This document shows, piece after piece, positions 46,097 to 49,774 of a stretch of DNA of 64,000 bases (positions within the stretch are counted from its first letter, which is position 1; each line of letters starts with the position of its first letter). The stretch spans positions 1-64,000 of the forward strand of contig NZ_JANFNH010000024.1 in the NCBI RefSeq assembly GCF_024436055.1, written 5' to 3'. The position numbers and the translations under genes were made by a program. The DNA comes from Streptantibioticus rubrisoli (GTDB lineage: Bacteria; Actinomycetota; Actinomycetes; Streptomycetales; Streptomycetaceae). The notes under the pieces are model-generated. The model saw nothing but the letters and a program-made list of their open reading frames with translations. It ran no database searches and was not told the origin of the DNA.

Positions 46097-46597
46097 ATGT
46101 CCAGCGATTACGCCAAACAGCTCGGAGCGAAACTCCGGGCGATCCGCACGCAGCAGGGACTCTCCCTCCACGGCGTTGAGGAGAAGTCCCAGGGCCGCTG
46201 GAAGGCCGTCGTCGTCGGCTCCTACGAGCGTGGCGACCGTGCGGTGACCGTGCAGCGGCTTGCCGAGCTGGCCGACTTCTACGGGGTCCCGGTGCAGGAG
46301 CTGCTGCCCGGCAGCGCGCCCGGTGGCGCCGCTGAGCCGCCGCCGAAGCTCGTACTCGACCTTGAGCGGCTGGCCCAGGTGCCCTCCGAGAAGGCGGGTC
46401 CGCTCCAGCGGTACGCCGCGACCATCCAGAGCCAGCGCGGCGACTACAACGGCAAGGTGCTCTCGATCCGCCAGGACGACCTGCGCACCCTCGCCGTCAT
46501 CTACGACCAGTCGCCCTCGGTGCTCACCGAGCAACTGATCGGCTGGGGCGTACTGGACGCCGACGCGCGTCGGGCGGTGCAACCCGAGGAGGGCTGA
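46097..46597 (+). CDS. bldD: Developmental master repressor BldD
   Basis: A 166-aa regulator that holds sporulation genes off when bound to tetrameric c-di-GMP. The N-terminal XRE-type helix-turn-helix (AKQLGAKLRAIRTQQGLSLHGVEE) is DNA-binding. The C-terminal domain holds the c-di-GMP signature as RQDD (RQDDL), near residue 125. GGGGAG precedes the ATG. Palindromes overlap its promoter. A terminator follows. Confidence 0.96.
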   Translation: MSSDYAKQLGAKLRAIRTQQGLSLHGVEEKSQGRWKAVVVGSYERGDRAVTVQRLAELADFYGVPVQELLPGSAPGGAAEPPPKLVLDLERLAQVPSEKAGPLQRYAATIQSQRGDYNGKVLSIRQDDLRTLAVIYDQSPSVLTEQLIGWGVLDADARRAVQPEEG

Positions 46598-47139: not shown

Positions 47140-47706
47140 TTAGCTGTTCACCCGGCCGAGGTAGTCACCCGAGCGGGTGTCGACCTTGATCTTCTCACCG
47201 GTGGTGATGAACAGCGGGACCTGGATCTCGTAGTCGGTCTCCAGGGTGGCGGGCTTGGTGCCGCCGGTGGAACGGTCGCCCTGCACGCCGGGCTCGGTGT
47301 GCTTGACGGTCAGCTCGACGGCGGCCGGAAGCTCGACGTAGAGGACCTCGCCCTCATGCTGGGCGACGGTGGCCTCGAAGCCTTCGAGCAGGAAGTTGGC
47401 GGCGTCACCGACCGACTTGCGGTCGACGTGCAGCTGGTCGTAGGTGTCCATGTCCATGAAGACGAAGTACTCGCCGTCCATGTACGAGAACTGCATCGTG
47501 CGCTTGTCGACGGTGGCCGTCTCGACCTTCACGCCGGCGTTGAAGGTCTTGTCGACGACCTTGCCGGAGAGCACGTTCTTGAGCTTGGTACGGACGAAGG
47601 CAGGGCCCTTGCCCGGCTTGACGTGCTGGAACTCGACGACGGACCAGAGCTGGTCGCCGTCGAGCTTGAGCACCATGCCGTTCTTGAGGTCGTTCGTGGT
47701 GGCCAC
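47140..47706 (-). CDS. efp: Elongation factor P, PGKGP subfamily
   Basis: A 188-aa factor that rescues ribosomes stalled at polyproline. The domain I loop reads [13 protein letters not shown]; the Lys at the loop tip is in the palindromic KPGKGPA context known from actinobacterial EF-P, which works without Lys modification. No poxA/earP/ymfI-type modification gene is nearby, in line with that. GTG start with AGGAG upstream. Confidence 0.95.
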
Positions 47707-47755: not shown

Positions 47756-48862
47756 CTACAAGGCGAGCAGTTCCTTGGTCGTGATGGTGAGTAGCTCGGG
47801 CCCGCCGTCCGCCGTGGGGCGTACGACGAGTGTGTCGTCGATCCGGACACCGCCCCGGTCCGGGAAGTGGACCCCCGGTTCGACGGTGACCGGCACACAA
47901 GCGTCCAGTTTACCCATGGCTGCGGGGGTGAGCCGAGGGTCCTCGTCGATTTCGAGTCCCACGCCGTGTCCGGTCCACGATCCGGCGGCCTCGCCATGGC
48001 CCGCCCGCTCCAGCACCCGCCGCGCCGCGAGGTCCACCTCCCGGCAGGCGGCGCCCGGTGCCAGGGCCTCGCGGCCGGCGCGCTGGGCGTCGAACACCAC
48101 GTCGTACAGGTCGATCTGCCAGTTCGCGGGCGCGGCGCCGATGACGAAGGTTCGGCCGACCTCGCAGCGGTAGCCGCGGTAGCAGGCGCCGAGGCAGACG
48201 GTGAGGAAGTCGCCCTCCTCGACCCGGCGGTCGGTGGGGCGGTGCCGGGCGGCGCCGGAGTGCGGGCCGGTGCCGACGTAGGTGGGGAACGCGGGGCCGT
48301 CCGCGCCGTGGTCGGCGAGCCTGCGCTCCAGTTCCAGTGCGAGATGCCGCTCGGTGCGGCCGACCAGGATGGACTCCAGCAGCTCGCCCAGCGCCTGGTC
48401 GGTGATCTCGGCGGCGATCCGCAGACAGGCGATCTCCTCCTCGTCCTTGACCAGCCGCAGCTGCTCGACGGCCTGGCTCAGGTCGAGCAGGCGCAGGCCC
48501 GGCGCGACCGAGGCGATGGCCCGGTGCCGGGCGACGGTCAGATGGTGCTCCTCCACCGCCAGGCTGTCGGCGCCCAGGCCCGGAGCGAGGTCCGCCGCGG
48601 CCACCGCGGGGTCGCCGTCCGGCGCGGGCAGCGTCACCCGGCGCAGGTCGTCCGGCGGGGTGCCCTCGCCCGGCTCCCCGTACGCCCGGCGGCGGTGCAC
48701 CAGCACGTCCTCCGCCGGCGCCAGCATCAGTACGGCGCCGGACGGAGCCCAACCGGTCAGATAGCGGATGTTGGCGGGTCGGGAAACCAGCGCCGCGGCG
48801 GATCCGGCCGCCGCGCACCGCTCCCGTAGCCGCATCCGGCGGGCGGCGTGCACCTCGGACAT
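47756..48862 (-). CDS. M24 aminopeptidase-P-like protein with altered metal site
   Basis: A 368-aa pita-bread-fold protein. An N-terminal creatinase-type domain (about 1-135) precedes the M24 domain. Metal-ligand positions by alignment to the motif are Cys223 (normally Asp), Glu234 (Asp), His299 (His), Glu328 (Glu) and Asp342 (Glu), and HE becomes DE in LEIDEDP. The intact fold and 11-residue spacing suggest conservation. It may be a non-peptidase or use another metal. It lies 49 nt upstream of efp. Confidence 0.85.
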
Positions 48863-48997: not shown

Positions 48998-49774
48998 CTA
49001 ACGGCCGGTGAGGGTGCGGGTGACCACCCGGTCCAGCGCCTGCGCCGTGCTCGGAACGTCCAGCTGGGAGTTGTCGATGATGGGCAGGCCCGACCCGTAC
49101 CAACCCGCCATGCGGCCGTGGATGCGGGCCACCTCCTCGTCGGAGAGGCGGCGGTTGCCGGTGCGCTCCGCGTTGCGGGCCAGGACGACCTCCAGGCCCG
49201 GCAGCAGCACCACCGGCAGCAGCCCCGGCCCGACGTGGCGTTTCCAGCCACCGAGGCCGACCACCGGCCGGTCCGGGAAGACCGCGTCGTCGATGATGCA
49301 GGAGATGCCGTTGGCCAGGAAGTTACGGGCGGAGAACCCGCAGGTCCGCCGGGCGAGCCGGTACTGCGCCTCGGAGTGCTCGTTCCAGCCGGACTGGGGA
49401 TCGGCGAACCCGGACCGCACCCACTCCCGCACGTCGTCCAGGCTGATGTGCGCGGTGGCCGCACCCCGGTGGTCGGCCCAGTACCGCGCGACGGTGGTCT
49501 TCCCCGCCCCCGCCGGACCGATGAGCAGCACCGCCACCGGCGCGTACGAGGGGGCCGACGGCAGCGCCATGGCGGCCGGAGGCAGCGGGAAGTGCCCGGT
49601 GGTGGCCGCCGGAGCAGGGCCGGGGACCGCGCCCGGCGGTGCGGGCCACGGCGGGGGCACGGGCGGCTCCTGGGGCACCGGTCCCGGACCGGGCCGTCCC
49701 TGCGGGGCCGGGGGGATCCAGCCAGCGGCACCCCCGTGAGGCGGTGGCAGCGGCACCCCCACAGCATGCTGCAT
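48998..49774 (-). CDS. P-loop ATPase/kinase with Pro-rich N terminus
   Basis: A 258-aa protein. Residues 1-75 are Pro/Ala/Gly-rich and probably disordered. Walker A is IGPAGAGKTTVARYW (about 85-99), followed by ISLDDVREWVRSGFADPQ and a Walker-B-like SCIIDDAVFPD. This is typical of zeta-toxin- or kinase-like small P-loop proteins (AAA_33). Target unknown. It lies 135 nt upstream of the M24-like gene. Confidence 0.75.
   Translation of the reverse strand: MQHAVGVPLPPPHGGAAGWIPPAPQGRPGPGPVPQEPPVPPPWPAPPGAVPGPAPAATTGHFPLPPAAMALPSAPSYAPVAVLLIGPAGAGKTTVARYWADHRGAATAHISLDDVREWVRSGFADPQSGWNEHSEAQYRLARRTCGFSARNFLANGISCIIDDAVFPDRPVVGLGGWKRHVGPGLLPVVLLPGLEVVLARNAERTGNRRLSDEEVARIHGRMAGWYGSGLPIIDNSQLDVPSTAQALDRVVTRTLTGR

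Follow-up and report, generated by a model that had tools for sequence, protein, structure and literature searches.

An efp-linked M24 family protein of Streptantibioticus rubrisoli is predicted to be a pseudopeptidase that arose once in the Streptomycetaceae

Here we describe a gene of Streptantibioticus rubrisoli, located in the 64,000-nucleotide stretch of contig NZ_JANFNH010000024.1 that was analysed (the window), whose product has the domains of an Xaa-Pro peptidase of the M24 family and, as judged from the residues at its metal-binding and catalytic positions, very probably lacks Xaa-Pro peptidase activity. We consider it moderately probable that the conversion of this efp-linked, M24B-type protein into a pseudopeptidase happened a single time, on the stem of most Streptomycetaceae, and that the protein has since been kept in a folded, noncatalytic form. 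The original prediction of a pseudopeptidase next to efp, made from the letters of the window, is supported: active-site histidines and a metal ligand have been lost in 15 genera, this loss has one origin, and the protein is under purifying selection.

Table 1. Features of the M24-efp region, in window coordinates
Feature	Position	Strand	Details
M24-like pseudopeptidase gene (predicted)	47756..48862	minus	368 aa; ATG at 48862; last sense codon ends 47759; stop 47758-47756
C223, metal position 1 (canonical Asp)	48194..48196	minus	clade A: C 103, R 16, G 5, S 3, A 1, N 1 (n=129)
E234, metal position 2 (canonical Asp)	48161..48163	minus	clade A: E 122, Q 5, A 1, R 1 (n=129)
H299, metal position 3	47966..47968	minus	His in 128/129 clade A, 13/20 clade B
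E328, metal position 4	47879..47881	minus	Glu in 129/129 clade A; clade B Gly 18, Ala 2 (n=20)
D342, metal position 5 (canonical Glu)	47837..47839	minus	Asp in 127/129 clade A; Glu in 20/20 clade B
R206, catalytic His position	48245..48247	minus	clade A mostly G, R, A; His 2/129
D306, HE-motif His position	47945..47947	minus	clade A: D 103, G 17, E 5, H 3, Q 1
efp	47140..47706	minus	188 aa; GTG start 47706; loop KPGKGPAF; EFP_N, EFP, Elong-fact-P_C
TAAACT, -10-like TANNNT element, candidate efp promoter	47907..47912	minus	within M24 gene; ends 200 nt before efp start
GACAC, WhiA-type pentamer	47832..47836	minus	inside M24 gene, ~125 nt before efp; also codons of Asp343-Thr344
P-loop kinase, proline-rich N-terminal tail	48998..49774	minus	AAA_33 39 bits, Zeta_toxin 25 bits, both over cut-off
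TGHFPLPP, conserved linear motif in kinase tail	49577..49600	minus	

RESULTS

The window protein has M24B domains and a noncanonical active site

The window protein matches the Pfam profile Peptidase_M24 at 180.1 bits (cut-off, 23), which places it in the M24 fold family, and Creatinase_N at 64.8 bits (cut-off, 22), and the order of the two domains, Creatinase_N followed by M24, is that of the M24B prolidases and aminopeptidases P. Its closest solved structures are Xaa-Pro dipeptidases (1pv9_A at an E value of 4.3e-47), and it scored below every curated cut-off among the 14 NCBIfam equivalogs listed (PepQ and others), the best score being 172.1 bits versus 630. An alignment with 1pv9_A sets C223, E234, H299, E328, and D342 opposite D, D, H, E, and E at residues 209, 220, 284, 313, and 327 of that chain, which we take to be its metal ligands; the open-licence literature that was searched gave no residue numbers for prolidase ligands. 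The original prediction had listed this set of Cys, Glu, His, Glu, and Asp in place of Asp, Asp, His, Glu, and Glu, with correct spacing, and the alignment bears it out. That reading missed further losses, which the alignments place at R206, S295, and D306, where canonical orthologues show His, and in the N-terminal motif, where H56, R57, and A60 replace the canonical T, D, and Y. S41 and R59 are present, yet they are not conserved within the clade described below (R59 is found in 7 of 129 clade A rows). Sequencing error as the source of the metal-position set was ruled out because two loci of the same genus, L002 and L003, carry the identical set. An AlphaFold2 model of the protein, for which the input alignment (A1) consisted of the window and 37 of 80 loci, was poor (mean pLDDT, 58.2; pTM, 0.53).

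As a separate observation, an antisense open frame of 320 aa runs opposite the M24 gene (window positions 47867 to 48829, plus strand), and L279 has a frame of the same size; this frame is likely a by-product of GC-rich codon use.

The active site was lost on one branch

M24 matches were found in 246 loci, which were oriented by tblastn, and 228 distinct rows were aligned after 8 duplicates or pieces (L142, L143, L203, L054, L027, L198, L199, and L249) and 10 identical proteins had been left out. The aligned rows consist of 62 canonical efp-linked rows, 129 rows of clade A, to which the window protein belongs, 20 rows of clade B, one further row (L141), and 16 paralogues. The canonical pattern at eight checked positions, H/D/D/H/H/E/R/E, occurs in all 62 efp-linked canonical rows, a group defined by this very pattern, although among the efp-linked rows from outside the family there are no exceptions to it. 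The same pattern is kept by 16 of 16 paralogues, including one (L134) in the window's own genome. It is complete in all 55 rows from outside the Streptomycetaceae and in the 7 in-family rows from genera g2 and g5, which represent all seven genomes of those genera in the family search. The expectation that related genomes often have an Xaa-Pro peptidase at this place thus holds for these rows; yet 120 of 246 class genomes gave no M24 match at 1e-45, so the gene is not universal (the class sample consisted of 48 of 104 matched genomes outside the family). An alignment of efp-linked M24 proteins in the Streptomycetaceae had been proposed as a check, and the canonical pattern is absent from all 150 rows that represent the remaining 15 genera of the family; the window protein is not a single-species oddity.

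In a tree over 45 rows, the 27 rows with lost active sites, which we call dead, form one clade (support, 100/100), and a second tree of 84 rows, 51 of them dead, again gives a dead clade with an SH-aLRT value of 100. In the trees, the sister of the dead clade is the canonical group of g2 and g5. Judged from these topologies, the catalytic loss has a single origin, on the stem of most Streptomycetaceae. A canonical set in sister species had been named beforehand as evidence against a pseudopeptidase; such a set exists at the level of sister genera only, where it shows when the loss took place and does not contradict it.

Catalytic histidines persist in a few rows: in clade A, His is found at position 206 in 2 of 129 rows and at position 306 in 3 of 129 (L045 has both), and in clade B it is found at position 295 in 6 of 20. 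Both dead clades retain 46 positions at which a single residue makes up at least 95% of the canonical set, and new residues, e.g., R112, E152, and G203, are conserved across the two. The most divergent dead copy, L141/L262 of genus g15, has a long in-frame insertion between the second and third metal positions and a Gln at the fifth.

Loss of the two-metal site in both clades leaves a one-metal site plausible in clade A only

By alignment, the two-metal site is gone in both clade A and clade B. In clade B, position 1 is A, S, or V, and the residues at the other positions are given below and in Table 1. A two-metal peptidase is very unlikely on these residues because metal position 1 drifts in clade A, and the same variation among C, R, G, S, A, and N led us to reject the suggestion of the original prediction that the site might use a different metal, at least for a site of two metals. 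In prolidases, the ligand at position 1 is exclusive to one metal, and the ligands at positions 2 to 5 hold the other. The residues thus make a single-metal site plausible in clade A only, where E-H-E-D is kept, and the protein could be a one-metal variant enzyme or a metal-holding protein, in which position 1 is free and E234, H299, E328, and D342, with their reciprocal Asp/Glu swap, hold a single metal that might serve a new chemistry or a structural role. The constancy of these four positions (122, 128, 129, and 127 of 129 clade A rows, respectively) versus the drifting position 1 favors such a site; however, the active-site histidines are gone, five rows have Gln at position 234, and the quartet could equally form a hydrogen-bond network. 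Moreover, clade B no longer has the ligands at position 4 (18 Gly and 2 Ala among 20 rows) and position 2 (15 Ser, 3 Ala, and 2 Cys), and hence the site is not needed across the whole family. We regard this one-metal alternative as unlikely.

The gene is retained under purifying selection

An orthologue at an E value of 1e-60 or better is present in 294 of 297 family genomes, with residues read only in the aligned rows. The three genomes without M24 (G046, G202, and G252) also gave no EF-P match at 1e-20. The contig of G252 stops 734 nt past aroB, in G046 the distance from aroB to a contig end is 662 nt, and no aroB orthologue was found in G202, which is 88% complete; gene loss in these three genomes was rejected in favor of probable assembly gaps. 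The median pairwise dN/dS values, which are rough since they are Nei-Gojobori counts in GC-rich genes, are 0.23 for clade A (6,758 pairs), 0.30 for clade B (51 pairs), and 0.17 for the canonical rows (46 pairs). By region, clade A has values of 0.40 (residues 1 to 130), 0.16 (131 to 320), and 0.08 (321 to 368); the corresponding values are 0.65, 0.45, and 0.20 for canonical rows and 0.57, 0.45, and 0.20 for clade B, which include distant pairs and are not closely comparable with those of clade A. The protein thus combines an active site whose residues are gone with purifying selection, as expected from sequence for a pseudopeptidase.

The M24 frame is split or stopped in single genomes, namely, G095, G243, and G085, and in the last of these efp is split too. 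In loci L261 (G095) and L263 (G243), the M24 copy is broken over three frames next to an intact efp, which may be real decay or an assembly error.

The 3' part of the M24 gene is a candidate efp promoter region

The position of the gene directly upstream of efp, as originally described, was confirmed: the GTG start of efp lies 49 nt past the M24 stop codon. Of the 246 loci, 229 have EF-P downstream in the same orientation at a distance of no more than 600 nt; among them are L199 and L203, which make up the split G095 copy and overlap by the simple measure used. The others comprise the 16 paralogues plus L168, in which the distance is 603 nt.

A TANNNT element resembling a -10 box is found in the eight-codon stretch around codons 317 to 319 in 207 of 212 efp-linked loci versus none of 12 paralogues tested (of 16), against a background of 2.8 to 3.6% per 24-nt window; the pattern is post hoc, having been picked out afterwards through synonymous conservation. 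It is present in 129/129 clade A, 20/20 clade B, 1/1 L141, 7/7 canonical in-family, and 50/55 canonical outside-family rows, and the exact form GGTANNCT occurs in 127, 19, 1, 7, and 34 of them, respectively. Nearly all clade A rows (128 of 129) have AAA as codon 318, and AAA occurs at any other position in at most 3 rows. In clade A, dS is 0.17 over residues 321 to 368 versus 0.52 to 0.63 elsewhere, a roughly threefold drop; the dip is smaller in clade B (0.33 versus 0.43 to 0.61) and absent from the canonical rows (0.52 versus 0.48 to 0.51). No clear -35 element was seen with the TANNNT element, a sigma-70 scan gave 0 sites, and a terminator scan gave 1 match versus 0.9 expected. The GACAC pentamer in the same region, read as a WhiA site, is indistinguishable from plain Asp-Thr codons. 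In the part of the WhiA study that bears on this gene, a ChIP-seq table contains S. venezuelae efp at a distance of 191 (PMC3781837), and a passage on the HrdB regulon of S. coelicolor names SCO1491 (EF-P) within it (PMC6344877).

These features suggest that the 3' part of the M24 gene is likely the promoter region of efp and helps to lock the two genes together; such an embedded promoter would help explain why they stay neighbors. The element probably predates the loss of catalysis. The TANNNT counts, the dS dip in clade A that the canonical rows do not have, and the WhiA ChIP entry also favor the idea that the gene is preserved chiefly for its DNA, with the 3' part serving as the efp promoter, and that the protein no longer matters. 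However, the element is confined to the last fifth of the gene, and residues 131 to 320 are under selection in clade A at a dN/dS of 0.16. It is also shared by the canonical homologues, and therefore it does not explain the catalytic loss. We give this idea a low probability.

Improbable, too, is a role as the regulatory partner subunit of an active M24 paralogue or of EF-P itself. M24B enzymes are dimers, canonical paralogues coexist with the dead copy, and the linkage to efp is constant, all of which would suit such a role; however, the paralogues read are 29 to 37% identical and not linked to efp, and EF-P has no clear change that coincides with the loss of M24 catalysis, its loop being alike in clade A and many canonical rows. 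Finally, a pseudogene in slow decay, to which the split or stopped frames in G095 and G243 and a dN/dS above that of the canonical rows could point, is largely refuted by the selection data and very improbable, given a match kept in 294 of 297 family genomes, a dN/dS far under 1, and new residues (e.g., R112, E152, and G203) that are conserved in clades A and B alike.

A P-loop kinase with a proline-rich tail accompanies the dead M24 genes

Directly upstream of the M24 gene lies a gene for a P-loop kinase with 27 Pro among its first 76 residues. Among loci with at least 1 kb of upstream sequence, this kinase is present in the M24 upstream flank in 112 of 115 clade A loci, 9 of 19 clade B loci, and 1 of 1 for L141, and it is absent from that flank in the canonical loci (0/7 in family and 0/54 outside the family). 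Whole-genome searches at 1e-6 found it in all 14 genomes of the dead clade that were searched, in none of the 7 canonical in-family genomes, and in none of 6 other members of the order, and there was one weak match (35%, 1.8e-9) in five class members. At 1e-40, it was found in 287 of 297 family genomes, the ten without it being the seven canonical ones, G046, G202, and G297; at 1e-15, it was found in 40 of 394 class genomes, all within g1 and g10. Among the genomes searched, the kinase is confined to the dead-M24 lineage. In genus g14, it lies about 5 to 12 kb from the M24 gene on the same contig in six of seven genomes and on another contig in G015. G297 (locus L279) has a dead M24 gene and efp, but the 5 kb upstream contain other genes and the genome gave no match to the kinase; this is evidence against an obligate link between kinase and M24, although the assembly consists of 560 contigs. 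The kinase and the dead M24 coincide through one event on one branch, which may be chance; it suggests a partnership.

The motif TG[HQ]xx[LM], mostly TGH[VFI][PQ]LPPG, occurs in 116 of 123 tails of at least 60 residues, a pattern that was widened after the tails had been inspected (an earlier, narrower pattern matched 79 of 146 tails); shuffled tails contain it in a mean of 0.3 and at most 2 cases. The tails were read from the last in-frame stop, and some may include untranslated codons. An AlphaFold2 model of the kinase domain, with the window and 17 loci in the input alignment (A2), was poor (mean pLDDT, 47.8; pTM, 0.48).

DISCUSSION

The efp-linked orthologues outside the dead clade are of the M24B prolidase/aminopeptidase P kind, and the window protein resembles such enzymes (1pv9, 5cnx YpdF, and 5cdl) in its Creatinase_N-M24 order and its glycine framework. 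It differs from them in that metal ligand 1 and the active-site histidines are missing and Asp and Glu are swapped at positions 2 and 5. Creatinase is a metal-free M24 hydrolase, which works without a two-metal site and retains the catalytic His. The window protein is not of the creatinase type, as the catalytic His position is mostly G, R, or A in clade A. The N-terminal domain of Spt16 has an aminopeptidase-P-like fold that is thought to be without peptidase function. The same is thought of the APP-related domain of PID-5, according to the portion of the report that describes it (PMC10377022). Both are domains of larger eukaryotic proteins, in contrast to the stand-alone, bacterial window protein. 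Ebp1/PA2G4, of which an excerpt of the cited paper states that two of the five metal residues are retained, is likewise an M24 protein that has lost metal ligands and is noncatalytic (PMC11266112), a state that for the window protein is predicted; it differs in being eukaryotic, in belonging to the methionine-aminopeptidase branch, and in having no efp neighbor.

The M24 pseudopeptidases that we found in print are eukaryotic (Ebp1), as is Spt16, and the case described here is bacterial and kept through most of the family that holds the main antibiotic producers. SCO1492 and SCO1493 are presumably the S. coelicolor locus tags of the M24 gene and the kinase gene, and the open-licence literature contained no mention of either. 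Going by titles and the starts of abstracts among the matches listed, that literature describes neither the M24 protein as a pseudopeptidase nor an efp promoter inside its gene.

For the noncatalytic protein that we favor, the events could have been as follows. On the stem of most Streptomycetaceae, the Xaa-Pro peptidase active site would have been lost once, and the M24 protein that was retained would act as a noncatalytic binder. Its old Xaa-Pro pocket might read the proline-rich kinase tail without cutting it, and the efp promoter in the 3' part of the gene would lock M24 and efp as neighbors. We tentatively propose that the protein works by binding, likely of a proline-rich peptide, and that its likeliest partner is the kinase tail with the TGHxPLPP-like motif, as the distribution of kinase and motif would allow. 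Binding of proline-containing substrates without cleavage had been suggested in the original prediction, and the kinase tail supplies a candidate ligand for it. Against a pure binder, four of the five ligand positions are strongly conserved in clade A, which binding does not require, and some rows retain His at a catalytic position. More speculative still is the possibility that the M24 reader, by binding the TGHxPLPP-like tail, controls the kinase, while EF-P, whose promoter would lie inside the gene of the reader, is needed for translation of the tail, so that, in Streptomyces-type bacteria, the three neighboring genes would form one proline-centered regulatory unit.

The kinase tail is a concrete candidate partner, and the origin on one branch, together with the canonical sister genera, offers a before-and-after pair for the change from enzyme to binder. 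A caution that follows from the gene arrangement is that a promoter lying inside the gene upstream may be what maintains synteny with efp.

In the same block of the window, bldD is located at positions 46097 to 46597 on the plus strand, convergent to nusB (BldD-like_C, 130 bits), and a published synteny analysis, in the section dealing with these genes, places bldD together with nusB and efp (PMC13118837).
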